Positions 12,069-42,120 of a stretch of 64,000 nucleotides of DNA are shown here, in pieces. Numbering within the stretch: the first letter of the stretch is position 1; each line of letters opens with the position of its first letter. Under the pieces are notes generated by a model. It was not told the DNA's origin. It worked only from the letters and a program-made list of their open reading frames with translations, and made no database searches. Location: the NCBI RefSeq assembly GCF_008838325.1, contig NZ_CP042829.1, forward strand, positions 2,356,001 through 2,420,000. Direction: 5' to 3'. The stretch is from Tepidiforma bonchosmolovskayae. Lineage in GTDB: Bacteria; Chloroflexota; Dehalococcoidia; Tepidiformales; Tepidiformaceae. The position numbers and the translations under genes are program-made.

Positions 12069-12124
12069 CCAAAACCGCCGGAACCCTTGGACACAAACCC
12101 GTGACGGTCAGGAGGAAAGAGCAG

Positions 12125-15207: not shown

Positions 15208-15252
15208 ACCGCATCTGCTATACTCCGCGGTCGCAGCAGTTGGGGCAGATTG

Positions 15253-15279
15253 GGGGAGCGGCCGCGTGGGCCGCTCCCC
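15253..15279 (+). terminator. Hairpin between the lactonase and the CoA-transferases
   Basis: Eleven-base arms (15253-15263, GGGGAGCGGCC, and 15269-15279) with a 5-base loop. It would end or attenuate transcription leaving the lactonase gene. Confidence 0.6.
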
Positions 15280-15314
15280 TAGAGCCATCTGGAGCAACTC
15301 TGGGGAAGACAGCG

Positions 15315-16481: not shown

Positions 16482-16528
16482 CTTAATTTTCTTGAAAAAT
16501 CGTCGCGCGCTCACGAGGTTAAGACGAT

Positions 16529-17788: not shown

Positions 17789-17792
17789 CGCC

Positions 17793-19628: not shown

Positions 19629-19865
19629 GTTGCTCTCTCCCCGGCACGCTCGCAGGACTCTGCAAGGAGCTAGGGCGGCGCCCCTTTGGTCTAGGTGGAA
19701 CGCGAGACCCACGCAGCTTCGAGCGAAGCCCCGAAGAATGAACGGTGGGTCAGGTGTCGTCCCCGCGGCAGGTGACGGCCTGGGGGAATTACCTCGAGCG
19801 TTAGCAGAATAGCCTGGAACGCACGCTGTCCCCCATACGCCGCCCGCATCTGTCCCCAACAAGAC

Positions 19866-19904
19866 GGGCGGGGCCGAGAGCGTCACCACGCCCCGGCCCC
19901 GCCC
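19866..19904. terminator. Bidirectional terminator between convergent genes
   Basis: Ten-base arms GGGCGGGGCC (19866-19875) and GGCCCCGCCC (19895-19904) lie between the regulator and the monooxygenase, which end toward each other. The remaining bases of this 309-base gap (19629-19937) show no gene. Confidence 0.6.
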
Positions 19905-19937
19905 TCGCTTAGGGGAAGGCTCTACGTGAAAACCTGC

Positions 19938-21581
19938 CTACCGGACTGAGGCAGCCTCCGGTTGACCGAGGATGAACCCGCTGAGGCCGCGTTCCACCTC
20001 GTCCCATAGTTTCTGCCGGTACATCGGCGCACCCGAGGGGTACTGAAGCATCTCCGGCCGCTTGCCCGGGATGTTTGCTCCCATGTACCAGGACTTCGCC
20101 TTCGGGAACAGTGTCTTGGCGGCGGCGTCCAGGATCTCCTGGTGCCACTGCTTGCTCACGTCGAGCCGCGGCTCGATGCGCGTAATGCCGCGGCGGGTGA
20201 TATCGCTGATGACGTGGACGACCCAGTCGCCTTCAAGCTCGCCTGCAGTAGGCCCATTGAGGAAGGCCGCGGGCGAATGGAGGCCGTACGTGTAAAAGAG
20301 GTTCGGGAACCCTGGAACCATCTTGCCGAGGTAGTCGAGGTACTCCTCGTTCCAAACGTCCCTGATGGTTCGCCCTTCAGAGTTAACGATGTCGATTGCG
20401 GTCATCGTGCCAGTATTGTTGTCGAACCCGATCGCGCAGATAACGACATCGAGCTCGAACTCCTCTTCTCCCGCTCGAATGCCCGTCTCCGTGAATTCAT
20501 GGATCGGCTGGCTGTTCACGTCGACGAGGCGAACGTTGTCCTGGTTTTAGATCTCCCAGTACCACTGCTCCAAGCAGGGCCGCTTTACCCCGAACGGATG
20601 CGGTGGCGTCGACGGCGCGAGGAGTTCGAGGAGCTCTGGCTTCTTGATTCGCTTGACCGTCTCCCTCCGCCAGAAGTCGTAATTGGCACGGTTGCAGTCT
20701 TCGTCGAAGACGAGGTCAACGGGAGCAGCAAGCCAGAACCAGAACCCGCCCAGCTCCCAGTTAAACCGCATGATGCGGTCGCGCTCCTCTTGGGACATGT
20801 CCGCCCACGGCTTATATACAAAGTCGTAGTCGAACCCGGCGAAGGTCTGCTTGGTGCGCTCCATAGCGGCCGGGAAGAGTGGCTTCAGTGCGTCGTACTC
20901 GCGACGCGTATACCGTTCCTGTTTCATAGGCAGGGCGAGGTTTGGCGTGCGCTGGAAGACCACAAGCTGATCGGCGATGAGACCGACTTCTTGGATGATT
21001 TGGACGCCACTCGCTCCCGTGCCAATCACACCTACCCGCTTGCCTTTGAGGTCATCAACCTCCTTATCGCGCGGCCACCTGGCGCTGTGGTACAGCTCCC
21101 CGCGGTACTTGTTCGTCCCGGAGAAATATTTCGCCGGGTCGATCGGTTGCGTCGTTGACCCGGTGGCCATAATCAGGAACCGGCAGGTGACCGTGTCGCC
21201 GTTGCTGATTTCCACGCGCCATTGCTGGCCGTGCTCGTCAAATGTGGCACGCGTCATCCGCTGGCGGAACGACATATGCGGCCAAAGGTTCCATCGGTCC
21301 GAAACGTAGCGGAAATATCCCTGGAGCTCCTTCCAGCCGGGGTACTTTTCCGTGAAGTGGTAGTTCATCCAGAGGTCCGGGTCAGTGAACTGGTATACCC
21401 AGATGCAGGAGTCCACCCTCGCTCCAGGATACCGGTTCTTGTCCCAGGTTCCCCCGGGGCCCTCCCCGTCGTCGATGAGCCTAACCCTGAAGTCGCGCTT
21501 CAGGAACTCATGCAGGATGTACAGACCTGAGAAGCCTGCGCCGACGATGAGTGCGTCCAGTTGTGGCTTTGAAGTGTCCAT
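19938..21581 (-). pseudogene. Flavin monooxygenase (Baeyer-Villiger type) with one in-frame TAA
   Basis: The frame runs 548 codons, a normal length for this family, but codon 345 (20547-20549) is TAA. Before it are the FAD motif VGAGFSGLYILHEF, the signature GELYHSARWPRD, and the NADPH motif VIGTGASGVQ; after it come NQDNVRLVDV, DVVICAIGFDNNTG and the C-terminal region, all in the same frame. Related enzymes have an aromatic residue at the stop position, so one substitution (for example TAC to TAA) explains it. The ATG at 21581 has AGGAGGGG upstream. If intact it would insert oxygen beside a ketone, giving an ester or lactone, matching the nearby lactonase-like gene. Confidence 0.85.
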
Positions 21582-24114
21582 TGTTAACCCCTCCTGTTCG
21601 TTGCCCGGCCGTCTCTGCGCGGACGGTCATCCGGGCGGCGAGACGATAGCAAGTCCGCAGGGAGCGAGGTCGTCTGACTTTGCGACACTTCGGAAAGGTG
21701 GAGCATCGGTAGAGCGGATGGTGCTCGGACCCGATAGGCGACCGGGCAAGGCGGTCGCCTTGAGGTTTCGGTTCCACCCCTGCATCAACGCTCTGAGTTG
21801 GTAAGGGGGGTCAATGCGGGCTTCTAGCACGTTGCTGGGAATGGAAGCCGGCGGTACCCGGGCGATAGGGGACATGCAGCAAACAGGGTAGGAGGACCCG
21901 ATGCGTAACCGGCAGGAACGAAAGGCGCAAATGATGTGGGCTTGGCCCCGGCCCACCCGGCCGGGGCCAAGCACCCCAGCCACCGGATTCGCGAATTTGT
22001 CGCTATAACCCCCGATCGCCTCCCACTCCTCTCGGTTGCTATGCTCGGGGGCTCGGGCGGCCCTGGAGCCCGACCGAACAGGTGTTCGAGGCCGCCCTCC
22101 GTGTAGCCCGCTCGTTGGTCCACTCCGAGCGTCAGCACTCCGAACGGCGCCAGTATGAACCGTTCTTTAACATTGTTGCTGGACCACAACATCACCGGGC
22201 ACGTCTTCGACCTTGCGACCTTCGACTACAACCAGGAGCGCCTTTGCGGCGTTTCCCCCCGTCTCGGGAAGGCTCAGGCTATTTCTTCTGGCCTCGGCTT
22301 TGACCGCTGTTGGGGTCAAAACCGGGCAGGCTGCCGCCCAAGCCGATGTTGTCGGCGCTCCCGTTCTCGCGGCGCCCGGGAGCGGCTGCGCCAGCGGCGG
22401 GCGGCTTACCCTCTGTTGAAGCGCTAATTAGACGTCGAGGTTGGGCGCATGCTGCCACCGGTAGCAGCTACCACCACCGGCGGCCCCGGTTCATTGTCCT
22501 GACGCAGGTGTCGGCTCTTCCCGTTGAACCTCGTCACGCTTCAGCCTCGCCCCCTTCCGACTTCGGTACACCCTTGAGGTATGGAGCCCCGGCACCGGCA
22601 ATCGGCGGCAATTCGAAAGAGAGCCGAAGGGGCCTGGTCCGAATGCAGCAACCAGGGGCTTCTGACCATGCCGATTGTCCGGCGCACCCAAGCGGGGCCT
22701 ATGCCCCATCCGAATCCTAGCTTGATGGCCGAAGCGTAGCCGCCCATTGCCGCGACTGCGTGGCGCTGAACCAGGTTATCCGCTTTGTGGTCATGCCGGG
22801 CCGCCGGGCCCGCCGACGGCCGACAGGCGACCGGTTGAACGTCCGCGTCGGCGTGACGTGGCCATTTGCGAGAGACCGTGGCCCGTCGGCGGGAGCTTAA
22901 GGCCGATGTCCGGGACGTACCGATGCCGGTCGAGCGGAGCGTCTTCCCCCTACCGTGCCCGCCCTGGCGATGGCGGTGAAGTCATGGTCGGTCGGCTCGC
23001 CGAACGCGAAGTCTGGGTTCTCCTCATGGACAGCCGAGTGCCAGTCACCCCCTGCCCAACCCGAGGGGCTGCCGACGCGCCCCGACCGGTGTCTGCGCCC
23101 CTGGATGCTTGCATGGTTGCAGCGCTTTCGGCTTCGCCCCTACTTACCCTCGGCCAGAGGGCAGTACCCGCGCACGGCGGTACCTCAACCGTGGGGGGCG
23201 CCGGTCCTGAAGCCGACTCGGCTGACCTCTACGAGCGGCCGTCGAACCAAACCTTTCGCTGCAAAGAGCTCCCTGCCCTCCCAGCCGACTAATCCGCAGG
23301 CCGCTTCGCCTGCAGGCCTCAAGCGGCCGAAGGTTCGGTTTCTCGGCCCCCTCGCGGATGGTGCACCAAGGCCTGGCCGCTGCGGTTCGCTGCAGCCGCG
23401 ACCGTGGCCCTGCAGCGCGTGGGGACCTTCCTCGGTGGTACGCCGTTCTTTTGGCTTTCGGCCGGCAGCATCCCCGCCAGCACTTGCCCGGAATAGACCA
23501 GCGGCCGGGATGCTGGACCCAATGCAGCGTGGCACGTGCCAGCCAAGCCGTCCCTGAAGTCGGCGGACAGTCGATTGCTTCCCTCGAGAATCCAGATTTG
23601 TTCAGCGCTCCCGCTAGCCGGCGGTGCCGGCTTCACCGGAAATGCTCAGGTCAGCCTGCACCGATAGCTCCCCAGTCTGCTGAGAGAGTCCGGATATCAT
23701 CGCTATCCACTGGTCTTAGCACAGCAACTCGGCCCTCGTCGTCAGCTGATGCCCCCATCGGTCGCAGAGTCGAAGCCGGTCTCGAACCTGCAGGACCTTC
23801 AGTTATCGCCGGGGGTGAAGGCTTGGGTTGGGCCAGCGGACCGGTGAAAACCCCAGTGCCTCGGCCCTCCTTCTTAGGGAATGCCCGGCCCCCGGGGCCG
23901 GCCTGCCAGTTCCCGGCGCATCCCTTGCCGGCTCTCTTCGCCCAGCCCTTTCGGGGAACTCCAGCCAGGTGCAATGACCCGACCAGCCTGGTGATGTCCG
24001 CCGCGTCGTACTGGCAAGCCTGCCCAGTGGAGGCCCGCTACCGTCTGCCCGGTTTGTCGCTAGAATCCCGGTACAGCTCGTTCGAACTCAGACCTCGCCG
24101 CCCTTGGAGCGCCC
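21582..24114. other. 2.5-kb stretch without recognisable genes
   Basis: Open frames here are short, overlapping and rich in Arg, Pro, Ser and Ala, with no family motifs and no good ribosome binding sites. A 68-codon frame from a TTG at 22213 begins a weak hydrophobic segment but is not convincing. A strong hairpin lies at 21941-21971. The segment may be decayed DNA or hold the upstream regulatory region of the defence operon; near 24060 there is no clear promoter. Confidence 0.5.
21941..21971. terminator. Strong GC hairpin in the gene-poor stretch
   Basis: Thirteen-base arms (CTTGGCCCCGGCC at 21941-21953 and its complement at 21959-21971) with a 5-base loop, about 360 bases upstream of the monooxygenase start. 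No transcript ending here is known. Confidence 0.5.
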
Positions 24115-27100
24115 ATGGACGTCTTCGCCCTCCGGAATAGCCTGGTCAGTGAATACCGGGACTTCGTAGAGAGCTTCCTGACCATTCGAGATAGCCGAAT
24201 TCGGGAATTCGTAGACCAGGCCCTTAGCGACGGGTTGCTCTGGCCAGAGGCACTGGTCCAGCTCAACCCAGGCTTCAAGACCCCGGCAGACGTTGACACA
24301 CTTGTAGAACGTGGCCTGCTTCACGAGGAATGCCGCCGAATCTTCCGAAAGGACAAGAGCGAGGGTAACCCTCTTGGCAGGCCGTTAAAGCTCTATCAGC
24401 ACCAGATCGAGGCTATAGAGGTTGCAGGGCGCGGGGAAAGCTATGTGCTCACAAGTGGCACTGGCTCCGGGAAAAGCCTTGCCTATCTCATTCCGATCGT
24501 GGACGCCATCCTGCGGGAAGGGCCCGGCAGGGGTATTCGGGCCATCATCGTGTACCCCATGAACGCCCTGGCCAACAGCCAGGCCGGCGAACTCCATAAG
24601 TTCCTCGAGCTTGGGTTCCCCGGAGGCCAGGGGCCCGTCCGCTATAAGAGGTACACGGGGCAGGAGTCGGACGAAGAGCGACAGGAAATTGTCGCTAATC
24701 CTCCAGATATCCTTCTCACCAACTACGTCATGCTAGAGCTCATCCTGACCCGGCCCTTTGAGCGGCCCCTCGTCCAGGCTGCGCGCGGCCTCAGGTTCCT
24801 CGTTCTGGATGAGCTCCACACCTACCGCGGGCGGCAGGGCGCAGACGTGGCGATGCTCGTGAGGCGGGTAAGGGAGGCTTGTGAGGCTCGCCAACTGCAG
24901 TGCATCGGAACTTCGGCGACCCTCGCAGGTGCCGATGACGTCCTGCAGCAGCGTGAGCGTGTCGCCGAAGTCGCACAGCTTCTCTTTGGGACTACCGTCA
25001 GGCCCGAAAGCGTCATCCTCGAAACCCTTCAACGGGTTACCGAGCAACGTGACATAATCGATCAAACCTTCATCGTTGAACTCCGTGAGGCCGTCGAATC
25101 CGGGTCGGTCCCTGCCTCGGCTGAGGAACTGAGGAGGAACGCCCTTGCCTGCTGGGTTGAGGAAAAGCTGGGGATTGAGCAAAAGGGCCCTTACCTGCGG
25201 AGGGCCAGGCCTAGGGCTATTCGCGGAAGCGGTGGCCTCGCAGCCGAGCTTGCCGAGCTCACAGGGCTCGAACCCGAAAGGTGTGCAGAAGCGATTGAGG
25301 CCATCCTCTCTGCCGGCTTCCGCGTCCTCAATCCAGAGACGGGCCAGCCGATGTTCGCCTTCCGTTTGCATCAGTTCTTCACCAGGGGCGACACCGTCTA
25401 CGCCTCGCTCGAGCCCCCGGAATCCCGGTATCTGACCCTTCGCGAGCAGCAGTATGTTCCGGGCGACCGGTCCAGGCTGCTATTCCCGCTCGCGTTTTGC
25501 CGCGAGTGTGGCCAGGAGTACTACTCGGTCGCTGAGGCGAACAACGGAGCGAATGGCAATGTGTCTTCCACCCCTGGCGAGGTGCATCCGAACCAGTTCG
25601 AACCAAGGGACCCCCGTGTGGGGGCTGAAGGTGCCGCGTACCTGTACTTCCCTGATCCTGATGAAGCCGCAGATGCCTATCTGGACCGAATTCCGGACTC
25701 CTGGCGTGACCCCTCTTCCGAGAACGTCCTGAAAAGTAAGCGGGGCAAGCTCCCTCGAACTTTCCGCGTGGGGACGGACGGAAGGTTTTCCCCGGACGGC
25801 CACGAGGTCTTGGTCGTCCCCTCTCCAATTCCTTTTTGTCTCCGATGCGGGGTGTCATACGAGGGCAAGGAAAGGCAGGACTACGCCCGCCTCGCGACTA
25901 TCGGTGAGGGTGGCAGGGCTTCCGCGACGACCATCCTCGTCGCTGAGGCACTGCGCCGCCTGAAGGATGGAGCCGGCCTCCCTCAGGAAGCCAGAAAAGT
26001 TCTTAGCTTCACCGATAACAGGCAGGATGCGTCACTCCAGGCAGGGCACTTTAACGACTTCGTTCAGGTTGGCCTGCTCCGCTCAGCGCTGCACCGTGCG
26101 GTCTCTCAGGCCGGGCCCGAGGGGCTGAGGTATGACGAGCTAACCCAGGCCGTCTTCAAGGCCCTTTCCTTGCCGTTTGAACAATATGCGAGGGACCCTG
26201 AGCAGCGGTTTGCTGCCAGAGAGGAGACTGCCCAGGCACTCCGGGATGTCCTCGGCTACCGCCTCTATCGCGACCTCGAGCGAGGATGGCGTCTGACGGC
26301 ACCAAATCTCGAGCAATGCGGGCTTCTCAGGTTCAGGTACCTCTCGCTGGACGAACTCTGCTCCAGCGAAGAGCACTGGAGAGACCTTCATCCTGCGCTC
26401 GCAGGGGCGACGCCCGCTCAGAGGGAAGAGATATCGCGAACGCTTCTCGACCTTCTGCGCCGCGAGCTCGCTATCAGCGTCAACTACCTCGAGTCCGGCT
26501 ACCAGGAGCGGATAAAACAGAGGTCCGACTCCCGCCTGGCAGCCCCTTGGGCGCTCGACGAAGATGAGAAGCTCAAGAGTGCATCGGTAGCCTACCCCGG
26601 CCCTCGCCGCAATGGCGACGATAGGGACTGGAGGCACGTCTTTATCTCGTCGAGGAGCCTGTTTGGGCAGTACCTCAAAAGGGTCAACCTCTTCTCAGGT
26701 CTTCGACCTCCCAATCAAAAGGAAGTCGAGGAGGTCATTGCGAACCTTTTTCAGGTTCTGCGCATCGGCGGGCTGGTTGAGGTCATCGATAACCGCGACG
26801 AAGCTGCTCCCGGCTACCAGCTCTCAGCCGCCGCGATGATTTGGTTGGCCGGCGATGGAACAAGACCCATCCATGACCCCCTGCGGGTGACCCTCGCAAA
26901 TGAGACCGCCAGGGGCGCAAACAGGTATTTTGTCGACCTATATCAGCAGATCGCTGACACGATGGTCGGCTTCAGGGCCGGGGAGCACACCGCCCAGGTC
27001 CAGTCTGGTGTCCGAGAATACCGTGAAAAGGCTTTCAGGGAAGGCCGGCTTCCCGTTCTCTTCTGCTCCCCAACCATGGAGCTTGGGGTCGACATCGCTG

Positions 27101-29298
27101 AGCTTAATGTAGTGAACCTCCGCAATGTTCCCCCTACCCCGGCCAACTACGCTCAGCGCAGCGGACGTGCCGGAAGGCGTGGCCAACCAGCTCTGGTCTT
27201 TACCTACTGCTCGGCCACCAGCTCTCACGACCAGTACTTCTTCAGTCATCCCGTCGAAATGGTCGCCGGCCAGGTGCTGCCTCCCCAGCTTGAGCTGGCA
27301 AACGAGGACCTCCTCAAAGCTCACGTTCATGCCGTCTGGCTGGCCGAGACCGGGCAGGACCTTGGGTCCTCGATGGCCGACGTCCTCGACGTCGCCGGAG
27401 AAGCGCCCACTCTTGAACTCCGAGCTTCACTGGGGGCCGCACTGGCCAATCCCGACGCCAGGGAGCGCGCTAAAGCCAGGTGCTCCAGCATCCTGGACAC
27501 GGTTCCTGGCCTTAAAGAAGCCGACTGGTATCACGAAGGATGGCTCGATGAAGTCCTTGCCAAGGCGCACACCAGCTTCGACGCTGCTTGCGACCGCTGG
27601 CGCTCCCTCTATCGGGCAGCCCTCAATACCAGAGAAGAGCAGAATCGCATCATCGGCGACGCCTCCCGCACCAGTCAGGAGCGTGATCGTGCCAAGCGGC
27701 TCAGGGCCGAGGCCGAATCTCAGCTTGATCTGCTCCGCGCCGATACTGCAGGAACTCGGACATACCAGTCAGACTTCTACAGCTATCGCTACTTCGCCAG
27801 CGAGGGGTTCCTGCCCGGTTACAACTTCCCCAGGCTTCCGCTCTCCGCATTTATCCCCGGCCGGCGCGGTACCAAGGGACAAGACGATTTCCTCTCCCGC
27901 CCAAGATTCTTGGCTATCGAGGAGTTCGGACCCCGCAGCATCGTCTACCACGAAGGGGCGAGGTACGTCATCCATCGGGTCCTTCTGCCACCGAGCAGAA
28001 CCCTTGACGGAAAGCTCGTCACCAGCTCGGCGAAGCAGTGCAGCGAATGCGGCTACCTCCACCTCATCATCGACCCCCCGGGCCCGGACCTGTGCGAGCG
28101 CTGCAACCATCTCCTCGATGCCCCCATCGATAGCCTCTTCCGCCTCGAGAATGTCTCCACAATCCGCCGTGAGCGGATTACCTCCGACGAGGAGGAGCGC
28201 GTTCGGGTCGGCTACGACGTGCAGACCGGCATCCGCTTCGCTGAGGAAGCCGGCGCCACTCGGGCCAGGGTTGCAGAAGTGCGCAAGGATGCGGAGAAGC
28301 TCGCAACCCTCACGTACAGCGGCGCCGCAACCCTCTGGCGGATTAACCTCGGCTGGAGACGACGGAAGAGTTCAGCCGGAATGGGGTTTTGGATTGACCC
28401 TGAGCGCGGCACTTGGCAGCGACGCGAAGATGAGTCTGAGGAGGCCGAGGAACAACAGGATCGACCTCGCCAAAGAGTGGTGCCGTTCGTGGAAGACCGT
28501 CGCAACGCGCTGCTGTTCGAGCCTTCGACTCCCCGGGGTGACGCATTCATGGCCTCACTGGCAGCTGCATTGAAGAGGGCCATACAGGTAGAGTTCCAGC
28601 TCGAAGAATCCGAGCTTGCCGTCGAGCCGCTGCCCCGCCGCGAGAAGCGCAACCTTCTGCTCTTTTACGAAGCCGCCGAAGGTGGAGCCGGCGTCCTCCG
28701 AAGGCTTGTCACTGACCCCGAAGCGATTAACCGGGTCGCCCGCCGGGCCCTCGAGATATGCCACTTTGACCCCGACGACGGAACAGACCTCGGAAAAGCC
28801 CCGCGGGCAAAGGAGAACTGCGAGGCAGCCTGCTACGACTGCCTGATGAGCTACACCAACCAGCTTGACCACAAACTCCTTGACCGGCAGTGTGTCCGCG
28901 ACTTTCTCCTCGACCTGTCCGGAGCCAGATGCGAGCCATCACCCGTTGACACCCCCCGTCACGAGCACCTCCAGGCCCTCCTGAACCTTTGCCAGACCGA
29001 CCTCGAACGCCAGTGGCTTCGCTTTGTCGACGAGCTCGGTCTTGCCCTGCCGACCATGGCCCAGAAATACATTGCCGCCGCGAATGCGAGGCCTGACTTC
29101 GTCTACGATGACAGCCTCACGGCAGTCTTCGTTGATGGACCGGTTCACCAGTACCCTGACGTGGCCGCCCGCGACCATCAGGCCGAACGCCGCCTCGAAA
29201 ACGCTGGCTGGACAGTAGTCCGATTCAACAGCAACAAAGAGGCGTGGGAGGGGGTGCTCCAGCAATGGCCGGACGTCTTCGGCAGGATTTCCCGGTAG
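24115..29298 (+). CDS. DEAD/DEAH helicase with zinc-binding (MZB/DUF1998-like) region and nuclease-like C-terminus; DISARM-related
   Basis: A 1727-residue protein. The first helicase lobe has TSGTGSGKSLAY (Walker A, about 113), LDELHTYRGRQGAD (about 230) and GTSATLAG; the second lobe has ELGVDIAELNVVNLRN and YAQRSGRAGRRG (about 1013). A zinc region follows: CSECGY..CERCN (about 1308-1329) and CEAACYDCLMSY (about 1567-1577), as in MrfA- and DrmB-like proteins. The last 90 residues contain ARPDFVYDDS and VFVDGPVHQ, resembling the PD-(D/E)XK fold of Vsr/DUF559 nucleases. It is first in a three-gene operon with a DrmD-like helicase and an adenine methylase. The likely role is DNA translocation and degradation of unmodified phage DNA. 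The ATG at 24115 has only a weak GGAG upstream. Confidence 0.88.
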   Translation: MDVFALRNSLVSEYRDFVESFLTIRDSRIREFVDQALSDGLLWPEALVQLNPGFKTPADVDTLVERGLLHEECRRIFRKDKSEGNPLGRPLKLYQHQIEAIEVAGRGESYVLTSGTGSGKSLAYLIPIVDAILREGPGRGIRAIIVYPMNALANSQAGELHKFLELGFPGGQGPVRYKRYTGQESDEERQEIVANPPDILLTNYVMLELILTRPFERPLVQAARGLRFLVLDELHTYRGRQGADVAMLVRRVREACEARQLQCIGTSATLAGADDVLQQRERVAEVAQLLFGTTVRPESVILETLQRVTEQRDIIDQTFIVELREAVESGSVPASAEELRRNALACWVEEKLGIEQKGPYLRRARPRAIRGSGGLAAELAELTGLEPERCAEAIEAILSAGFRVLNPETGQPMFAFRLHQFFTRGDTVYASLEPPESRYLTLREQQYVPGDRSRLLFPLAFCRECGQEYYSVAEANNGANGNVSSTPGEVHPNQFEPRDPRVGAEGAAYLYFPDPDEAADAYLDRIPDSWRDPSSENVLKSKRGKLPRTFRVGTDGRFSPDGHEVLVVPSPIPFCLRCGVSYEGKERQDYARLATIGEGGRASATTILVAEALRRLKDGAGLPQEARKVLSFTDNRQDASLQAGHFNDFVQVGLLRSALHRAVSQAGPEGLRYDELTQAVFKALSLPFEQYARDPEQRFAAREETAQALRDVLGYRLYRDLERGWRLTAPNLEQCGLLRFRYLSLDELCSSEEHWRDLHPALAGATPAQREEISRTLLDLLRRELAISVNYLESGYQERIKQRSDSRLAAPWALDEDEKLKSASVAYPGPRRNGDDRDWRHVFISSRSLFGQYLKRVNLFSGLRPPNQKEVEEVIANLFQVLRIGGLVEVIDNRDEAAPGYQLSAAAMIWLAGDGTRPIHDPLRVTLANETARGANRYFVDLYQQIADTMVGFRAGEHTAQVQSGVREYREKAFREGRLPVLFCSPTMELGVDIAELNVVNLRNVPPTPANYAQRSGRAGRRGQPALVFTYCSATSSHDQYFFSHPVEMVAGQVLPPQLELANEDLLKAHVHAVWLAETGQDLGSSMADVLDVAGEAPTLELRASLGAALANPDARERAKARCSSILDTVPGLKEADWYHEGWLDEVLAKAHTSFDAACDRWRSLYRAALNTREEQNRIIGDASRTSQERDRAKRLRAEAESQLDLLRADTAGTRTYQSDFYSYRYFASEGFLPGYNFPRLPLSAFIPGRRGTKGQDDFLSRPRFLAIEEFGPRSIVYHEGARYVIHRVLLPPSRTLDGKLVTSSAKQCSECGYLHLIIDPPGPDLCERCNHLLDAPIDSLFRLENVSTIRRERITSDEEERVRVGYDVQTGIRFAEEAGATRARVAEVRKDAEKLATLTYSGAATLWRINLGWRRRKSSAGMGFWIDPERGTWQRREDESEEAEEQQDRPRQRVVPFVEDRRNALLFEPSTPRGDAFMASLAAALKRAIQVEFQLEESELAVEPLPRREKRNLLLFYEAAEGGAGVLRRLVTDPEAINRVARRALEICHFDPDDGTDLGKAPRAKENCEAACYDCLMSYTNQLDHKLLDRQCVRDFLLDLSGARCEPSPVDTPRHEHLQALLNLCQTDLERQWLRFVDELGLALPTMAQKYIAAANARPDFVYDDSLTAVFVDGPVHQYPDVAARDHQAERRLENAGWTVVRFNSNKEAWEGVLQQWPDVFGRISR

Positions 29299-32114
29299 GG
29301 TCTCTCGTCAGGGTTCGTGGCCGAGACTGGGTAGTCCTGTCCGACGCTGACCCCGACCTCCTCATGCTCCGCCCCCTCGGCGGCACCGATGAGGAGGTCA
29401 CCGCCGTTTACCTCCCCATTGAACCGGTCAAACCCGCCTCCTTCCCTCAGCCCGACGCATCGGACCTCGGCGACTTTCGCTCTGCGAAACTCCTCCGCGA
29501 TGCCCTCAGGCTCGGCTTCAGGGACACGACGGCTCCCCTCCGGAGCATTGCGCACATCGCATTCGAGCCTCGACCGTACCAGCTCGTTCCCCTGCTCATG
29601 GCACTCAGGCTCGACCCTGTCCGCCTTCTCATCGCCGATGACGTCGGCGTAGGGAAGACCATCGAGTCTGCCCTCATCGCCCGCGAACTCCTCGACCGCG
29701 GCGAGGTCGACCGCCTGGCCATTCTCTGCCCTCCGCACCTCGCCGAGCAGTGGCAGTGCGAGCTAGCCGAGAAGTTCAACATCGACGCCGAACTCGTCCT
29801 CCCTGGCACTGCCAGCCGCCTCGAACGCGGTCTTGGAATGAACGAATCCGTCTTTGACCGATACCCCTACGTCGTTGTCTCGACCGATTTCATCAAGTCT
29901 GACCGGCGCTGGCAGGAGTTCGTGAGGGCATGCCCCGAACTCGTTATCGTCGACGAAGCACACGAATGCGCCGACCAGTCCGGCGGACGTTCCAGCCATC
30001 AGAGATATCGCCTCGTCTCCGAAATCGCCCGGCATCCCTCGCGTCACCTCATCCTCGTCACGGCGACCCCACACTCAGGCAACGAGAGCGCCTTTCGTAA
30101 CCTCCTCGGTTTTCTCGACTCCAGGCTCGGTCAGCTCCCCGAGGACCTGTCACCTGAGGCCCGCCGGGCTGAGCGCACGCTCCTCGCCAATCACTTCGTC
30201 CAGCGGCGAAGGTCAGACGTCCTCCGTTACCTCGACACCAGTACAACATTCCCACAGCGAGAGTCCGTCGACCGCACCTACAAGCTGAGCCTCGAGTACC
30301 GTCAGTTCTTTTACGACGTCCTCCGCTGGTGCAGGGAGCGGGTCAGACAGTCTGGTGGAGGAGAGCACCGCCAGCGAGTCCGCTGGTGGGCCGCCCTGGG
30401 ACTTCTCCGTGCCATCGGCTCGAGCCCTGCTGCTGCCGCCGCAACCCTCTACGAGAGGGCCCTGCCCGAGGCCACTGCCTCAGCTGCAGAGGCCGATGAC
30501 CTCGGCCGGCGGACCATCATGGACCTCACTGATGAGACCGCAGAGGGCACCGACGTCACCCCCGGCGCCGAGGTCGAATCCGACGAGCCCCAGCTCGGTT
30601 CCTCAGAACGCCGCCGGCTCCGTGAGCTGGCCCTTAGGGCCCAGCAGCTGATGGGCCCGGCCGACCGCAAGCTCGAAGCCGGCATTGCTGCCGTCCGAGA
30701 GCTGGTCAACCTCGGCAGGTCCCCAATCGTCTTCTGTAAGTTCATCGAAACCGCTGAATACGTCGCCGCCGCACTCCGCAATGAGCTGCGCGACGTCACC
30801 GTCGAGGCCGTCACCGGCAGGCTTCCGCACGACGAGCGTGAGCGTCGCGTCTCTGCCCTCGCCGAGCACCCGAAGCGCATCCTCGTCGCCACCGACTGCC
30901 TCTCCGAGGGCATCAACCTCCAGGAGCACTTCAACGCCGTCGTTCATTACGACCTGGCCTGGAATCCAACCCGTCACGAACAGCGCGAAGGCCGCGTCGA
31001 CCGCTTCGGCCAGCCCAGGGAGAAGGTCGTCACCGTCATGCTCTACGGCGACGACAACCCCGTCGACGGCATCGTCCTCGATGTCCTGCTTCGCAAGCAC
31101 CGGGCCATTCGCGAGAGCCTGGGCGTCAGCGTGCCGGTTCCTGAGAGCCAGTCCGTCCTCGAAGCCATCCTTGAGGGCCTCCTCCTCCGCGGCCGTCCCG
31201 ACGAGGAGATCCTGGGCCAGCTCGAACTCTTTGAACGCGACGTCGTCGCTCCCCGGCGCATCGAATTCCACCGCGAATGGGACCGTGCCGTCGAACAGGA
31301 GCGCAAGTCACGCTCGCTCTTTGCCCAGGAGGGCATCAGGGCCGAGGAGGTTGCAGCCGAGCTGGAAGCTACCCGCCAGGCCCTCGGCGGGCCGCTCGAT
31401 ATTCGGTGGTTCGCCGAAAACGCCCTGGTTTCACTGGGCGGAGTCGTGACCCCCATCGGCCAGGATGGCCTCTCTGCCAGCCTTGCCCATGGCCCCAGGG
31501 CACTCCTCGACCAGCTCAGCCCCGAACGGCAGCCCGGCGCTCACAGCCACCAGGCTCATACGTTCTGGTTCCCCTTCTTGCGCACCCACCCCAATATTCA
31601 GGCCCTCGCATCCTTCGTCCTCGATACCGCCCTCGACCCCCAGGCCCCACCCGCACTCCGTATCGCAAGGCGAGGAGGGGTCATCCGTACCCGCGGCGTC
31701 CAACGCAGGTCGACCCTACTGCTCCTCAGGCTCCGCTACAACTTCGTCACCCGTCGCGGAAACGATGCCAGGCTCCAGCTCGGGGAAGAATCCGCGCTCC
31801 ATGCCTTCGCCGGCTCTCCAGACCAGCCAGAGCTCCTGGGCCCCGCCGAGGCTGAGCGTCTCCTCAGCCTCGAGCCCGCGGCTAATGTCACGCCAGACCA
31901 GGCCAGGTACCACCTCCAGCGCATCATCGATGGACTCCCCGCCCTCCAGGACGCCCTCGCGGCCTTCGCCCATGAGCGCGCAAAGGCCATCTACCGTTCC
32001 CACGAGCGCGTCGCTGCCGGCGCCAAAATCCGCAGCCTCAACCTCTCCATCGAACCCTGCCTTCCGCCAGACGTCCTTGGCGTCTACGTCTACCTCCCGG
32101 TTGGCCAGCAATGA
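29265..32114 (+). CDS. drmD: DrmD-like SNF2-family helicase
   Basis: A 949-residue SNF2 ATPase. The N-terminal 90 residues (VGSLVRVRGRDWVVL, LRPLGGTDEEVTAVYLP) match the domain typical of DISARM DrmD. The motor has IADDVGVGKTIESALIAREL (about 122), VDEAHECAD (about 228), VTATPHSG (about 264) and ATDCLSEGINLQEHFNAVVH with RQEGRVDRFGQ-type motif VI (QREGRVDRFGQ, about 583). The ATG at 29265 is preferred over the GTG at 29244 because GGAGGGGG lies ten bases before it; it overlaps the first helicase gene by 34 bases and the methylase by four, so the three proteins are translated together. It should move along double-stranded DNA as part of the defence complex. The symbol reflects family likeness, not proven orthology. 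Confidence 0.88.
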   Translation: MAGRLRQDFPVGSLVRVRGRDWVVLSDADPDLLMLRPLGGTDEEVTAVYLPIEPVKPASFPQPDASDLGDFRSAKLLRDALRLGFRDTTAPLRSIAHIAFEPRPYQLVPLLMALRLDPVRLLIADDVGVGKTIESALIARELLDRGEVDRLAILCPPHLAEQWQCELAEKFNIDAELVLPGTASRLERGLGMNESVFDRYPYVVVSTDFIKSDRRWQEFVRACPELVIVDEAHECADQSGGRSSHQRYRLVSEIARHPSRHLILVTATPHSGNESAFRNLLGFLDSRLGQLPEDLSPEARRAERTLLANHFVQRRRSDVLRYLDTSTTFPQRESVDRTYKLSLEYRQFFYDVLRWCRERVRQSGGGEHRQRVRWWAALGLLRAIGSSPAAAAATLYERALPEATASAAEADDLGRRTIMDLTDETAEGTDVTPGAEVESDEPQLGSSERRRLRELALRAQQLMGPADRKLEAGIAAVRELVNLGRSPIVFCKFIETAEYVAAALRNELRDVTVEAVTGRLPHDERERRVSALAEHPKRILVATDCLSEGINLQEHFNAVVHYDLAWNPTRHEQREGRVDRFGQPREKVVTVMLYGDDNPVDGIVLDVLLRKHRAIRESLGVSVPVPESQSVLEAILEGLLLRGRPDEEILGQLELFERDVVAPRRIEFHREWDRAVEQERKSRSLFAQEGIRAEEVAAELEATRQALGGPLDIRWFAENALVSLGGVVTPIGQDGLSASLAHGPRALLDQLSPERQPGAHSHQAHTFWFPFLRTHPNIQALASFVLDTALDPQAPPALRIARRGGVIRTRGVQRRSTLLLLRLRYNFVTRRGNDARLQLGEESALHAFAGSPDQPELLGPAEAERLLSLEPAANVTPDQARYHLQRIIDGLPALQDALAAFAHERAKAIYRSHERVAAGAKIRSLNLSIEPCLPPDVLGVYVYLPVGQQ

Positions 32115-35100
32115 GCAGCCCCCGCAACCAGCTCTTCTCAACCATCCGCACCGAGGGCGGCATCCTGCCCCCAGACCTCCTCGCACGAATCGCTGCCAAT
32201 GACCAGTCCCTCGGTGGCCTCGAGCCCGGCGACTACCACCTCTCCCCCGGCGACCGCCTTGGCGAGGCCATAACTCGCTCCTGGAACAGGCTCGTCGGCA
32301 CCTGGCGCGCATTCAAAGATGAACTCGAGCGCCAGCAAGGCCAGCCTGGTCGGGGCGAGTCGGTCACGACGCTCACCAGGGAGCGCTGGCTGCTCCCCCT
32401 TTTCTCCGAGCTGGGCTACGGCAGGCTTCCCACGTCCAGGGCCATCGAAATTGACGGCCGGTCCTACCCCATCTCCCACAGCTGGGGTCCAGTCCCCATT
32501 CACCTCCTGGGCTGGGCCGTCGACCTCGACCGCCGCACCAAGGGCCTGGCAGGCGCAGCCTCGCAAAGCCCCCACGGCCTCGTCCAGGAGCTCCTCAACC
32601 GCTCAGAAGAGCGGCTTTACGGTTTCGTCTCCAATGGCCAGGCACTTCGCCTCCTTCGGGATTCCACTGCTCTGACGCGGCAGTCGTACGTCGAGTTCGA
32701 CCTTGCCGCCATGTTCGATGGCGACAGCTACTCCGACTTCGTCCTCCTTTGGCTCACCTGCCACCAGTCCCGCTTCGAAGGCGAACCCCCGGAATCCTGC
32801 ATCCTCGAACGCTGGCGCGAAGCCGCCCGCGAACAGGGGGTCAGGGCCCTCGATGCCCTCCGCCAGGGCGTCGAACAGGCCATCAACGAACTCGGCTCCG
32901 GCTTCCTTGCCCACCCCTCCAACTCTGCCCTCCGCGAAGCCCTCACCTCAGGTGCCCTCGACCGCCAGGACTACTACCGCCAGCTCCTCAGGCTCATCTA
33001 CCGGCTCATCTTCCTCTTCGTCGCCGAAGACCGCGAAATGCTCTTCGCGCCCGGGGCCGACCCCCAGGCCCGCGAACGCTACACCAGGTACTACTCCACC
33101 TCACGGCTCCGCCGCCTCTCGCTCCGTCGCGTCTCTGCCCGGCACGGCGACCTCTGGGAAGGGCTCAAGGTCGTCATGCGTGCCCTCGATGCCCAGGGCG
33201 GCGCCCCTGGGCTCGCCCTCCCGCCTCTCGGCAGCTTCCTCTGGTCCCCACGCGCTATCCCACACCTCGAAGCCTCCAGCCTCTCCAACGACTTCCTCCT
33301 CCGGGCAGTCGGCCACCTGTCCCGTGTCAGCGACGGAGGGACCGTCCGCGCGGTCGACTACCGCAACCTTGGAAGCGAAGAGCTTGGCGGCGTCTACGAA
33401 TCCCTCCTCGAACTGCACCCCGAACTCGATGTCCAGCAGGGCACCTTCACCCTCCGCGTTGAGGCCGGCCACGAACGAAAGACCTCCGGCAGCTACTACA
33501 CCCCTCCTCAGCTCGTCCAGGCTCTCCTCGATTCCGCCCTCGAGCCCGTCCTCGCAGAGCGGGCACGGGCCAGCGACCCCGAAACCGCCATCCTCTCCCT
33601 CAAGGTCCTCGACCCTGCCTCAGGCTCAGGGCACTTCCTCGTCGCAGCTGCCCACCGCATCGCTCGCAGGCTCTCTGCGGTCCGCACCGGAGACCCAGAG
33701 CCCTCCCCCGAAGCCGTCCGCCGCGCCCTCCGCGACGTCGTCTCCCACTGCATCTACGCCGTCGACGTCAACGAAATGGCCGTCGAACTCTGCAAGTTCT
33801 CACTCTGGCTCGAAGCCCTCGAGCCCGGCAGGCCACTCTCCTTCCTCGATGCCCACATCCGGCGTGGCAACAGCCTGGTCGGCGTCACCCCTGCCCTCCT
33901 CGCCTCCGGCATCCCCGACGACGCCTTCAACCCTCATGCCCTCGACGACCCCGGTTCGGCCGCGGCGCTGAAGAAGCGGAACCGCGCTGAGCGCAAGCTC
34001 CTCCAGGACAGGGCAGCTCAGCTCACCCTCGACGAAGCCTCCGTGGCCGAAGTCCGCGAACTGGCTGAGGCCTCGACCAGGCTGTCGATGGCTCCCGACG
34101 ATACCCCCGAAGAGCTCACCGCCAAAGAGCTGGCCTACCGCGACCTCATCGAGGGCCAGGCCTACCAGCACTCCCGCCTGGTCGCCGATGCCTGGTGCGC
34201 CGCCTTCTTCCTTCCAAAGCAGAAGGGGGCCGAGGCCATCACCACCGACATCCTCCGTCGTCTCGCTGCCAATCCCGAACTCGTGACGGCTGCACTCCGC
34301 GACCAGGTCCGTCGCCTCGCCCATGACCTCGGCTTCTTCCACTGGCACCTCGAGTTCCCCGAGGCCTTTCGGGTCGCCGACGACGCCCCGGAAAACCCCG
34401 AAGCAGGCTGGTCCGGCGGCTTCGATGTCGTCCTCGGCAATCCACCCTGGGAGCGGGTCAAGCTCGAAGAAAAGCAGTTCTTCGCCGAGAGGGCCCCCGG
34501 CGTTGCCGCAGCAGCAAATAAATCCGAGCGCGCCAGGGCCATTGCCCGGCTGAAGGAGGAGGAGCCGGCGCTCTTCGAGGCCTACCGGCAGGCCTTGCAC
34601 CGTGCCGACTCCGAGCTTGGCTTCCTCCACAGCTCGGGCCGATACCCTCTGTGCGGACGCGGCGATACCAACACCTACGCCGTCTTCGCCGAAACCTTCC
34701 GCCTTCTGCTTTCGCCCGGGGGGCGGGCCGGCCTCGTCGTCCCGACCGGCATCGCCACCGATGCCACAACCCAGCACTTCTTCGCCGACCTCGTCGAGCG
34801 CCGCCAGCTCGCCAGCCTCTACGACTTCGAAAACCGGAAGAAGCTCTTTCCTGCGGTCGATAGCCGGATGAAGTTCTCCATCCTGACCATGGCCGGCCCT
34901 GCCCGCCCTGCGCCTGTCGCAGAATTCGCCTTCTTCTGCCAAGACGTAACCGACCTCGCCGACCCCGAGCGCCGCTTCACGCTCACCCCGGAGGACTTCC
35001 GGCTCCTCAACCCCAATACCCGCACTGCACCCGTCTTCCGCACCAGGCGCGACGCAGAGCTCACCCGCCACATCTACCGCCGCGTCCCCGTCCTCGTCGA

Positions 35101-36169
35101 TGAAGCGAAGGGAGATGCCGGCAACCCCTGGTCCGTCGCGTTTCTGCGGCTTTTTGACATGGCAAACGACTCCGGCCTCTTCCGCACCTATGGCCAGCTC
35201 GAAGACGCCGGCTTCAGGCTCCACGGCAACATCTTCGTCCGCGGCGACGAACGCTACCTCCCCCTCTACGAAGCGAAGATGGTCCACCAGTTCGACCATC
35301 GCTGGTCCACCTACAACCACTCCGGCGCCACCGAAGACGTCCCCGACACCGCGAAATCCGACCCGGGCTGCACCGTCCTCCCCCGCTACTGGGTCCGCGA
35401 ACGCGAGGTCGAGGATAGGCTCCTCGGCCGCTGGGACCGCGGCTGGCTCCTCGGCTGGCGCGACATCACCAACGCAACCAACGAACGCACCGTCATCTCC
35501 GCCGTCATCCCCCGCGCTGCCGTGGGCGATACGTTTCTCTTGGCGCTTCCCAGCTCTTCACACTATGCGCACGTTCTCCCGTTGGTGCTCAACTCCCTGG
35601 TTCTGGACTTTGCCGCTCGTCAAAAGGTTGGCGGGACCCACCTAAAGTTCCATACGTTCAAACAGCTTCCTGTCCTCTCCCCGAGTTCGCTCGCTGCCAT
35701 TTGTCCTTGGACCCAATCCCAATTGATGGCCGACTGGCTGCGCCCCCGCGTCCTCGAACTGACCTTCACCGCCTGGGACCTCGTCCCCTTCGCCCGCGAC
35801 CTCGGCTACCACGGCCCTCCCTTCCGCTACGACCCTGAACGTCGTGCCCTGCTCCGCGCCGAGCTCGATGCCTGCTTCTTCCGCCTCTACCTCGGCAGCG
35901 AATACGAATGGCAAGCCCAGGCGGGCCCGGAGCTCCGCGCCCTATTCCCAACGCCGCGCGATGCCGTGAGCTACATCCTCGACCAGTTCCCCATCGTCAA
36001 ACGCCACGACGAGCAGCGCTACGGCTCGTACCGTACCGCCGAGCTTGTCCTTGAGGCCTGGGACCGCATCGCCGCTGCCGAGGCGGGCCGTGCTCCCTAT
36101 CGGTCACTGCTCGACCCTCCGCCGGCCGACCCCTCCGTCGCCCATCCGGCGCCCGAGCCTGCCTCCTGA
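32111..36169 (+). CDS. Eco57I-type adenine-specific DNA methyltransferase (DrmMI-like)
   Basis: A 1352-residue N6-adenine methylase. The SAM-binding motif I is DPASGSGHFLVAAAHRIARR (about 501), the catalytic motif IV is VLGNPPWERVKLEEKQFF (about 776), and YTPPQLVQALLDSAL precedes motif I as in Eco57I-like and PglX-like enzymes. The N-terminal 250 residues contain LYGFVSNGQALRLLRDS, the region that carries a PD-(D/E)XK nuclease in type IIG enzymes; no intact D..EXK was found, so it is probably a methylase only. The C-terminal part is the target-recognition/helical region. In DISARM such an enzyme marks host DNA as self. It overlaps the DrmD-like gene by four bases (ATGA). Confidence 0.9.
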   Translation: MSSPRNQLFSTIRTEGGILPPDLLARIAANDQSLGGLEPGDYHLSPGDRLGEAITRSWNRLVGTWRAFKDELERQQGQPGRGESVTTLTRERWLLPLFSELGYGRLPTSRAIEIDGRSYPISHSWGPVPIHLLGWAVDLDRRTKGLAGAASQSPHGLVQELLNRSEERLYGFVSNGQALRLLRDSTALTRQSYVEFDLAAMFDGDSYSDFVLLWLTCHQSRFEGEPPESCILERWREAAREQGVRALDALRQGVEQAINELGSGFLAHPSNSALREALTSGALDRQDYYRQLLRLIYRLIFLFVAEDREMLFAPGADPQARERYTRYYSTSRLRRLSLRRVSARHGDLWEGLKVVMRALDAQGGAPGLALPPLGSFLWSPRAIPHLEASSLSNDFLLRAVGHLSRVSDGGTVRAVDYRNLGSEELGGVYESLLELHPELDVQQGTFTLRVEAGHERKTSGSYYTPPQLVQALLDSALEPVLAERARASDPETAILSLKVLDPASGSGHFLVAAAHRIARRLSAVRTGDPEPSPEAVRRALRDVVSHCIYAVDVNEMAVELCKFSLWLEALEPGRPLSFLDAHIRRGNSLVGVTPALLASGIPDDAFNPHALDDPGSAAALKKRNRAERKLLQDRAAQLTLDEASVAEVRELAEASTRLSMAPDDTPEELTAKELAYRDLIEGQAYQHSRLVADAWCAAFFLPKQKGAEAITTDILRRLAANPELVTAALRDQVRRLAHDLGFFHWHLEFPEAFRVADDAPENPEAGWSGGFDVVLGNPPWERVKLEEKQFFAERAPGVAAAANKSERARAIARLKEEEPALFEAYRQALHRADSELGFLHSSGRYPLCGRGDTNTYAVFAETFRLLLSPGGRAGLVVPTGIATDATTQHFFADLVERRQLASLYDFENRKKLFPAVDSRMKFSILTMAGPARPAPVAEFAFFCQDVTDLADPERRFTLTPEDFRLLNPNTRTAPVFRTRRDAELTRHIYRRVPVLVDEAKGDAGNPWSVAFLRLFDMANDSGLFRTYGQLEDAGFRLHGNIFVRGDERYLPLYEAKMVHQFDHRWSTYNHSGATEDVPDTAKSDPGCTVLPRYWVREREVEDRLLGRWDRGWLLGWRDITNATNERTVISAVIPRAAVGDTFLLALPSSSHYAHVLPLVLNSLVLDFAARQKVGGTHLKFHTFKQLPVLSPSSLAAICPWTQSQLMADWLRPRVLELTFTAWDLVPFARDLGYHGPPFRYDPERRALLRAELDACFFRLYLGSEYEWQAQAGPELRALFPTPRDAVSYILDQFPIVKRHDEQRYGSYRTAELVLEAWDRIAAAEAGRAPYRSLLDPPPADPSVAHPAPEPAS

Positions 36170-37234
36170 GGGTCGGCCGCCCCCCACTCCCGCACCGCAC
36201 CGCGGCCCCGCACGCCAGGGGGTGTTCCGCACCGGCCGCGCCTTGGCCCGTCGAGGGAATGTGCCTCCTCCATCGCCGGCAATCTCGTCCCTGTTGGTGC
36301 CCCCAGGCTCGAAACCCTGGCCTGCCACCTGCCTTCCCTTGGGTCTTCCCGGTTGGCCGCTGTCTCTGGCCGTCGCCACGGAGTTCGCCCTGCCCCCTGG
36401 CCAGTCCCGCAGCCAGGCAGCCATTCCTGTCCTGCCCATCCGCGCCTCCGCAGCGACACCCCGAAGAACTGTCGCTCCCTCGTGCCATTGAGCAAGGCCG
36501 CGGGTCCCAGGCGTTGGCCCGGACGGAAAAACTGGGCAGGCTCCCGCATGCGCTGCCAGTCGGCGTCTCCGGTGGTGCCCGGCGTCAATTTCCGCCAGCC
36601 AGTTACCCTGCCGTCCCCGTGCAGTACCGGCACCTGCAGCCCCGGAGGCGAACTCGCCCTCCACGGTGCCAGTCGATGTCTGATTCAGGGGCTGAGCTGT
36701 GTCGTCGCACACTCATGGTCCAGCCTGTGTCGCCGAACGCTTGAACACTATGGTCAGTACGACCTGGTACCGGCCGACCCTCAGGAAGCGTTCCATCCCT
36801 CCATCGAACCGACCAATCAGGAAAGTGAAATGGTGATTATTCGGCACTCACCTTCGTTGTCCGAAGCTGGCGCTTCCTTCGCCCGGTTTCTAGACCTGAC
36901 CAACCTCTGCGTGCGTTCGTCCGAGCATTAAAGGCCAGACCATCCTGTACTCGAACGACCTGCCCTTCCCTGGTGTCTGCCCCATCGACTCTTTCGAGCT
37001 TTAAAGGGCTTATCCCTGTGGTGTCCTCCCCGGCCTGGCCCATGCTCTCGAATGTAAAAATTTTTCATCGCGCACCTTAATTCAACGACGAGCCCTCTGC
37101 TGCACTCGTAGAATTCACACAGGACCTCGGTGGTCACGTAGTGATCGCTGGAGTCCCCTCCATCCCGCAAGGACCTCAGTTCAAACTTCCGGCCTGTCGG
37201 TTTGGAGGAATCTCTCCGAAAGGAGGTGAGAGCC
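36170..37234. other. 1.07-kb gap between the defence operon and the replication module
   Basis: No frame looks coding. The 3' part is AT-richer and contains the palindromic run AAAAATTTTT near 37056-37065. The excisionase ribosome binding site (AAAGGAGG) lies at 37219-37226. A junction of two elements could sit here. Confidence 0.45.
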
Positions 37235-37423
37235 GTGAGCGATCGGCTTACCTGCACGGTCGAGGAAGCTGCCAGGCTGCTCGGCATCAGCCGGACCCTG
37301 GCCTACAGGCTCGTCCAGTCCGGACAGCTTCCGTCGTTCAAGGTCGGCAAGCGGCGTCTCGTCCCGGTAGCAGCGGTTGAGGCGTTCATTGCCGACCAGC
37401 TCAGCTCCGCAAGCGCTTCCTGA
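37235..37423 (+). CDS. Excisionase-like helix-turn-helix protein
   Basis: A 62-residue DNA-binding protein of the excisionase/AlpA (MerR-like) type: TCTVEEAARLLGISRTLAYR, QSGQLPSFKVGKRRLVPV and VEAFIADQL cover the winged helix almost completely. Its usual role is to bend DNA at the attachment site and favour excision, or to activate an integrase gene. The GTG at 37235 is chosen because AAAGGAGG ends nine bases upstream; the ATG 11 codons earlier lies before that site. It is 27 bases before the primase gene and in the same direction as the second integrase, forming a small module. Confidence 0.9.
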   Translation: MSDRLTCTVEEAARLLGISRTLAYRLVQSGQLPSFKVGKRRLVPVAAVEAFIADQLSSASAS

Positions 37424-37450
37424 AAACCTCACATCTGCAAGGAGAGAATC

Positions 37451-40435: not shown

Positions 40436-40941
40436 AAGAGCTGCTTAAACGCTGCTACCGGGCGGGGCTCAAGGTCTCCATCAGCGACGCCGGAAACCTG
40501 AAGGTCAGCCTTCCTGATACCCCTGAGGCTGAGTCGCTGCTCGAGGAGCTCAGAGCGCATAAACAGGAGGTGATCAATTACCTCAGCACCAGTTCGCTTC
40601 AGGGAGGACACCTCGCAAGGCTGGCCGTCGAACCTGAGCTTCGGCGGTACTGTCACTGCACTCTCCGGCCTCAAATTGGGCAGGATGTCTCCCGCACCGT
40701 GGAGGAGATTGTCGACCTGTGCGAGCGCAACCCTGGACGGGAGCCCGTCCTGGTCGATGTCATTCACCCTGACGGCTCCATCCAGCAGAAAAACCTGCAG
40801 GCGCACGCCGACCGCGGGGTGCGCAAGGTGCTTGCAATGATTGTCCTCGACTGCAACCTCGGCGCAGCGCAGCGAGCCTTCCGCGGACAACCGCCAGTTT
40901 TGAACCAAGGGGGAAGAGATGAGACGCCGATTCAACGGTGA
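40432..40941 (+). CDS. Small protein with TubC-like N-terminal domain
   Basis: A 169-residue protein starting at a GTG that overlaps the stop of the primase gene (GTGA). The first 50 residues (LLKRCYRAGLKVSISDAGNL, then LLEELRAHKQEVINYL) resemble the TubC N-terminal docking domain, which also occurs in proteins next to primases in mobile elements. The rest contains RYCHCTL and LCERNPGREPVLVDVIHPDG and is not recognised. It may bridge the primase to another protein. It overlaps the start of the second integrase by 23 bases. Confidence 0.75.
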   Translation: MKELLKRCYRAGLKVSISDAGNLKVSLPDTPEAESLLEELRAHKQEVINYLSTSSLQGGHLARLAVEPELRRYCHCTLRPQIGQDVSRTVEEIVDLCERNPGREPVLVDVIHPDGSIQQKNLQAHADRGVRKVLAMIVLDCNLGAAQRAFRGQPPVLNQGGRDETPIQR

Positions 40942-42052: not shown

Positions 42053-42091
42053 CCTCCCGGTCGGCCACCTGGGCCGTTTGGGCCGCTTGCC

Positions 42092-42120
42092 TGGGCCGGT
42101 TCACGAAAAGGACCGGCCCA
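42092..42120 (+). terminator. Terminator of the second integrase
   Basis: Arms TGGGCCGGT (42092-42100) and ACCGGCCCA (42112-42120), followed by CGCTTTTG, 40 bases after the integrase stop. The same arm sequences occur at 13641-13681. Confidence 0.65.

Follow-up and report, generated by a model that had tools for sequence, protein, structure and literature searches.

The three overlapping genes described here lie within a 64,000-nucleotide stretch of the Tepidiforma bonchosmolovskayae genome (NZ_CP042829.1, positions 2,356,001 to 2,420,000, hereafter the window) and very probably form an ARMADA Type I defence operon, which rides as cargo on a mobile island. The assignment follows from the agreement of gene set, gene order and domain plan with the published definition. 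ARMADA combines a YprA helicase, which is most like that of Druantia, with a BrxHII/RapA-like helicase and a methylase resembling PglX, both of which it shares with DISARM Class 1 (Bell et al. 2025, bioRxiv 2025.09.15.676423, PMC12458937). In Type I the genes generally follow the order YprA, BrxHII-like, PglX-like, and the helicase carries the OB-CON-DUF1998 module fused in the same chain; it also has a BrxA-like insert after RecA1, inserts that bind zinc, and a nuclease of Vsr type at its C-terminus (PMC12458937). An initial annotation had proposed that the operon represents a distinct, compact branch of DISARM; it is instead a fresh copy of an already named system, the same three-gene layout bearing the name ARMADA Type I.

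The limits proposed earlier for the three long open reading frames (ORFs), all on the plus strand, are unchanged (Table 1), with overlaps of 55 bases between genes 1 and 2 and 4 bases between genes 2 and 3. Pfam profiles recover DEAD (2.5e-26), Helicase_C and MZB (MrfA zinc-binding, DUF1998-type; 1.2e-10) in gene 1, SNF2/Helicase_C in gene 2, and Eco57I (1.2e-17) together with N6_Mtase in gene 3, which bears out the description of a defence-type operon made of a DUF1998/MZB helicase, an SNF2 helicase and an adenine methylase. The operon is real, complete and conserved; it is not the product of chance, as many phyla contain full-length homologues, usually with the same gene order. Among the 80 best gene 1 relatives in genome contigs, the order YprA-SNF2-methylase is found in 56, and YprA-SNF2 in a further 13, mostly ahead of a contig end; in 9 the contig ends less than 500 bases from YprA. 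One of the 80 (L082) has both partners upstream on the opposite strand, and another (L098) has room for partners but none present. The Type II systems of E. coli NCTC 12900 and ATCC 8739 comprise the same three protein families, but in the order ArmA-ArmB-ArmC and with a fourth gene, ArmD, encoding a GajB-like helicase with a RelE-like domain. No such gene (GajB/UvrD-like with a RelE domain) stands downstream of the window operon, where the next genes encode HTH_17 and PrimPol proteins, as expected for Type I.

The architecture of gene 1 agrees with the Type I plan. In an alignment of 86 relatives, the Walker A lysine K120 and the DE of the DELH motif are present in all 86, and all eleven zinc cysteines tested are invariant. 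C462/C465 and C575/C578 (86/86) lie in a beta-rich region, giving a zinc-binding insert with at least two CxxC motifs at the start of RecA2, as in ARMADA Type I. The OB region holds a single cysteine cluster (1309/1312/1327/1330, again in 86/86), that is, one zinc insertion, which is the Type I pattern, whereas Type II has two; the OB-CON-DUF1998 module is completed by zinc cysteines 1569/1573/1576. For the structure models, alignments were drawn from rows of the window and genomes only, leaving out those from plasmid records. The AlphaFold model of residues 285-625 has a mean predicted local distance difference test (pLDDT) score of 81, with its helical part predicted, and a model of residues 1180-1727 a mean of 84. 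The DUF1998 part of the latter matches the fold of MrfA best (Z 13.2), with DrmB at Z 10.3. In the region before the OB fold, where ARMADA Type I has a coiled-coil helical extension reaching back to RecA2, the model, which begins only at residue 1180, shows a helix at model positions 8-32 followed by low confidence. Within the YprA family, helicase and DUF1998 module are consistently split only in DISARM (PMC12458937), and therefore the one-chain gene 1 represents the usual state of the family rather than a special fusion. The initial annotation had rightly placed both parts in one chain of 1727 residues, but the chain is not a DrmA-DrmB fusion, its helicase being nearest to the Druantia-type YprA.

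The end of the chain holds a feature that had been overlooked. The last ~100 residues of the gene 1 model match the fold of I-Bth0305I (Z 9.4) and that of E. coli Vsr (1cw0; Z 9.3 over 92 residues, 24% identity). Pfam DUF559 is matched by the tails of all 33 relatives tested, and in the alignment to its profile D1661 falls on the RPDF motif of Vsr. The presumed nuclease residues are kept in most of the 86 aligned relatives (E1631 in 81, D1661 in 84, D1674 in 83, H1678 in 78 and D1687 in 83). Sequence and model alike show that gene 1 carries a fused Vsr-type nuclease, predicted to be active; the operon thus does not lack a nuclease. It is true that the three ORFs of the operon include no drmC gene, as noted earlier; a single DrmC model gave 0 matches in the own genome of the window, but its control likewise matched nowhere. 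The phospholipase D (PLD) DrmC is usual in DISARM Class 1, although it is not essential.

In the case of gene 2, the best PADLOC match is PDLC02853, labelled 'DpdE' (810 bits, full length), followed by DrmD (282 bits) and the BrxH models (193 bits); the NCBIfam DrmD model NF038317 gives 311 bits, below its cut-off of 610. Since PDLC02853 is matched by 39/39 gene 2 relatives tested from such operons, its label probably describes the SNF2 gene of ARMADA Type I. Gene 3 matches the PADLOC DrmMI model with 228 bits. The earlier naming of these genes as DrmD-like and DrmMI-like is thus upheld. The GxGKT and DEAH motifs of gene 2 are near-invariant among relatives, as is the S-adenosylmethionine (SAM) motif of gene 3, the NPPW motif of which is found in 43/43.

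A tree of the helicase core (387 columns, 38 rows), which included DruE, DrmA, DpdJ, short YprA-only helicases and two Type II references, joins gene 1 in one clade (97/91) with 25 relatives, almost all of which come from three-gene operons. The DruE proteins (95/94), DrmA, DpdJ and the short YprA-only helicases fall outside it, the branches of DrmA and DpdJ being very long. The separation is supported, while the finer branching order is not. All together, the window operon shares with ARMADA Type I its gene order, the fused OB-CON-DUF1998 module, the zinc-binding inserts, the C-terminal Vsr nuclease, the absence of ArmD and the mobile context, and no contrary feature was found.

Several points nevertheless weigh against this assignment. 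The link to the published Type I (reference WP_108720193.1) rests on the definition, the tree having been built without that protein, and the two Type II references, which have long branches, do not group in the tree. A fold search with the model of the gene 1 insert (residues 285-625) did not identify BrxA: the best Foldseek hit had an E value of 0.55 and VIA-align returned weak winged-helix rows with Z of at most 3.6. To our knowledge, no Type I system has been subjected to a phage test. By analogy, moreover, gene 3 may be a sensor rather than serve for self-marking, since Type II protection needs the methylase motif.

Other named systems account for the operon less well. In a compact DISARM branch, DrmA and DrmB would be fused, drmC lost, and drmD and drmMI kept. 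This agrees with the DrmD and DrmMI matches of genes 2 and 3, and with DrmB (7s9v_B) being one of the two best fold matches for the C-terminal half of gene 1. Indeed, a DrmD-like SNF2 helicase, a DrmMI-like methylase and a DUF1998 module are common to DISARM Class 1 and the window, but in the window a single chain holds both the helicase and the DUF1998 module, the helicase is Druantia-like, there is no separate drmB or drmC, and a Vsr nuclease is fused. The profile comparison that reproduced the DrmD and DrmMI likeness gave only 58 bits for DrmA against gene 1, compared with 354 bits for DruE3, and the NCBIfam DrmD cut-off is not reached. In the tree, gene 1 groups with the relatives from three-gene operons, apart from DrmA and DpdJ. 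The plasmid pNOCA01 of Nocardioides holds an annotated drmA-drmB pair adjoining a complete three-gene operon, and because both stand side by side on one replicon we regard them as distinct. The DISARM-branch reading is largely refuted, and we consider it quite improbable.

The helicase profiles could also be taken to indicate a Druantia system, as the DruE models are the best PADLOC matches of gene 1. Controls speak otherwise: on the same model a genuine E. coli DruE reaches 2695 bits, while an E. coli ARMADA Type II helicase, assigned by its partner genes (a methylase before and an ATP-dependent helicase after), scores 350, equal to gene 1. Gene 1 is thus placed in the YprA sub-branch shared with Druantia without being DruE. 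The DruE proteins are split from its clade, the operon contains neither DruH nor another Druantia partner, and the PLD nucleases at the C-terminus of type III DruE are replaced by the Vsr type, so that a Druantia system is very unlikely. The full-length 'DpdE' match of gene 2 would be expected if the operon belonged to a Dpd (7-deazaguanine DNA) system. The same model, however, matches every gene 2 relative tested from this operon type, a search of the own genome found no DpdA transglycosylase, and the neighbourhood of the operon showed no genes for deazaguanine synthesis; we give this reading hardly any credence. An MrfA-like DNA-repair helicase operon, as opposed to a defence system, is hinted at by the fold of the DUF1998 part, for which MrfA ranks first. 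Against it, the operon is patchily distributed and sits on a mobile island, its partner genes are of restriction-modification and BREX types, and the own genome has a separate short YprA-only helicase (797-amino-acid frame), which makes a repair function a very remote prospect. As for BREX, genes 2 and 3 belong to families common to it (BrxHII, PglX), but BrxA/B/C, PglZ or BrxL genes do not accompany the operon.

Returning to ARMADA Type I, sequence and structure prediction show that gene 1 encodes a YprA-type helicase, with the OB-CON-DUF1998 module as its zinc-rich canopy and a fused Vsr-type nuclease that keeps its active-site residues, gene 2 a DNA translocase of RapA/BrxHII type and gene 3 an N6-adenine methylase, and that the three genes travel together. 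Unmethylated DNA stimulates the DrmAB ATPase more strongly than methylated DNA does (PMC9142583), and DruE is a helicase-nuclease that loads on 3' single-stranded or 3'-tailed DNA (PMC13192584). ARMADA Type II, the only type assayed for phage defence in the original report, confers non-abortive protection, which is lost on deletion of any of its four genes and needs the helicase and methylase motifs (PMC12458937). We infer from these three systems a likely scheme, in which the methylase and the gene 2 translocase would survey DNA and tell own, methylated DNA from that of an incoming phage. Gene 1 would load on exposed single-stranded ends or phage replication intermediates, unwind the phage DNA and cut it by means of its nuclease domain, so that phage replication would stop while the cell survives; in this scheme the fused nuclease would fill the role that DrmC has in DISARM. 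Anti-phage function of the window operon is likewise proposed by analogy.

A variant of this scheme keeps the operon as ARMADA Type I but makes the methylase a target-recognition or sensing subunit, so that SNF2 protein and methylase would form a BREX-like surveillance complex loading the helicase-nuclease on unmodified DNA. Mutation of NPPW in Type II ArmB abolishes protection, whereas mutation of the SAM motif only weakens it (PMC12458937), which speaks for a sensor. Both motifs, however, are near-invariant in gene 3 relatives, consistent with true catalysis, and the argument is transferred from Type II to Type I by analogy; we hold this variant possible but doubtful. Within ARMADA Type I, it appears rather unlikely that the Chloroflexota lineage is a functionally distinct sub-branch that spreads by PrimPol-integrase satellite-like elements and performs self-contained restriction with Vsr nuclease and methylase, no host nuclease being needed.

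Table 1. Features of the operon and of the surrounding island (coordinates of the window).
Feature	Position	Strand	Details
Gene 1, YprA-type SF2 helicase-nuclease (ArmC counterpart of ARMADA Type II), predicted	24115-29298	+	1727 aa, ATG start
Gene 1, RecA1/DEAD domain	24397-24927	+	residues 95-271; Walker A K120, DELH 232-235
Gene 1, insert between RecA1 and RecA2	24967-25989	+	residues 285-625; helical, then beta-rich with invariant CxxC pairs 462/465, 575/578
Gene 1, RecA2/Helicase_C	26944-27183	+	residues 944-1023; Pfam
Gene 1, OB-CON-DUF1998 (DrmB/MrfA-like) module	27772-28914	+	~residues 1220-1600; Pfam MZB at 1482-1577
Gene 1, C-terminal Vsr/DUF559-type PD-(D/E)xK nuclease domain, predicted	28993-29295	+	residues 1627-1727; E1631, D1661, D1674, H1678, D1687
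Gene 2, BrxHII/RapA/DrmD-like SNF2-family helicase (ArmA counterpart), predicted	29244-32114	+	956 aa, GTG start; Walker A K138, DEAH 237-240
Gene 3, PglX/DrmMI-like N6-adenine DNA methyltransferase (ArmB counterpart), predicted	32111-36169	+	1352 aa, ATG start; DPASGSG 501-507, NPPW 777-780
Transferable ARMADA module, block also present elsewhere in the chromosome of sister species G004	22381-42144	.	several aligned pieces
Small HTH_17 (AlpA/excisionase-like) protein, mobility module	37202-37423	+	
PrimPol/PriCT_1/DUF927 replication protein, mobility module	37451-40435	+	
169-aa protein, mobility module	40432-40941	+	conserved in sister species
Phage-type tyrosine integrase of ARMADA-PrimPol module	40919-42052	+	
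Direct repeat in tRNA-Met, left attachment site	11976-12020	.	45 bp, covers tRNA 5' half; tRNA 11940-12016, - strand
Second copy of the 45-bp repeat, right attachment site	48843-48887	.	96% identity
Tyrosine integrase of outer island, adjoining tRNA-Met	12101-13036	+	

The operon lies inside a 36.9-kb island at tRNA-Met, the GC content of which is below that of its flanks. In the sister species G004 the tRNA-Met flanks are contiguous and share 41 bases, representing the empty site. As the flanks are ~3-11 kb apart in three other species of the genus, tRNA-Met appears to be a hot spot for integration. The same operon is found elsewhere in G004 (gene 1 89% identical), together with the PrimPol-DUF927, 169-aa and integrase genes, and thus the ARMADA-PrimPol-integrase module moves as a unit; the window copy either forms part of the tRNA-Met island or is nested within it. 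Neither the window nor G004 showed an attachment repeat at the ends of this inner module, and the site used in G004 is not preserved in the own genome of the window. The module resembles the satellite-like elements reported for ARMADA Type II, but its replication gene differs: the carrier is a PrimPol-DUF927/phage-type integrase module, whereas the elements of the ARMADA report have an HUH replicase. Metabolic cargo is also present in the island (14206-21581), with genes for a metallo-beta-lactamase-fold hydrolase, family III CoA-transferases, a regulator of Fis/AAA type and a flavin monooxygenase whose frame seems to be broken by a stop codon.

A relative, taken at E 1e-60 or better, is present in 48 of 301 sampled Chloroflexota genomes (~16%). 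Full-length relatives of gene 1 are found on plasmids of Deinococcus, Nocardioides and Roseomonas (45-46% identity) and in many phyla, with further copies in Meiothermus and Calidithermus genomes. Among 2.9 million viral contigs they occur at only 10 loci, which argues against gene 1 being mainly a phage gene.

A number of loci depart from the canonical layout. In a genome of the same family (G018, L039:696-7471), a YprA protein of the clade (45% identity) occurs without SNF2 or methylase genes and overlaps an upstream GmrSD_N gene (type IV restriction), a possible two-gene variant. In another genome (G081, L038) the order is methylase - YprA - SNF2 on one strand. A Chlorohelix plasmid has extra genes between the core genes, encoding a 389-aa hypothetical protein and a four-helix-bundle protein (L142:17116-21608), and a Type II-like Thermus plasmid has an NYN-domain gene between them (L141:2712-3425). 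On plasmid MP1 of Deinococcus radiodurans R1 (L010:19946-24975) both helicase genes are full length, while the methylase gene is in pieces, an ISDra3 transposase gene separating the second from the third; the ARMADA operon of this strain may be damaged. The genome of T. bonchosmolovskayae also encodes a second YprA-type defence helicase, DruE-like and in two overlapping ORFs of 566 and 992 aa (L044:8533-16639, corresponding to G000:C1:1030532-1038638, minus strand). A 1150-aa protein with neither Pfam nor PADLOC match precedes it at the DruH position, and genes of a type I-G CRISPR system (Cas3g, Cas56g, Cas7g) follow on that strand a few kb downstream.

What was a lead to a new DISARM branch becomes a clear member of a recently named system. 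Such operons are probably often misannotated, given that PADLOC models name the SNF2 gene DpdE and the helicase DruE. The interest of Type I lies in its abundance, its fused nuclease, its mobile carrier and the misleading labels of current models, and the copies on Deinococcus plasmids and in Meiothermus and Calidithermus offer material for a first phage test of the type.

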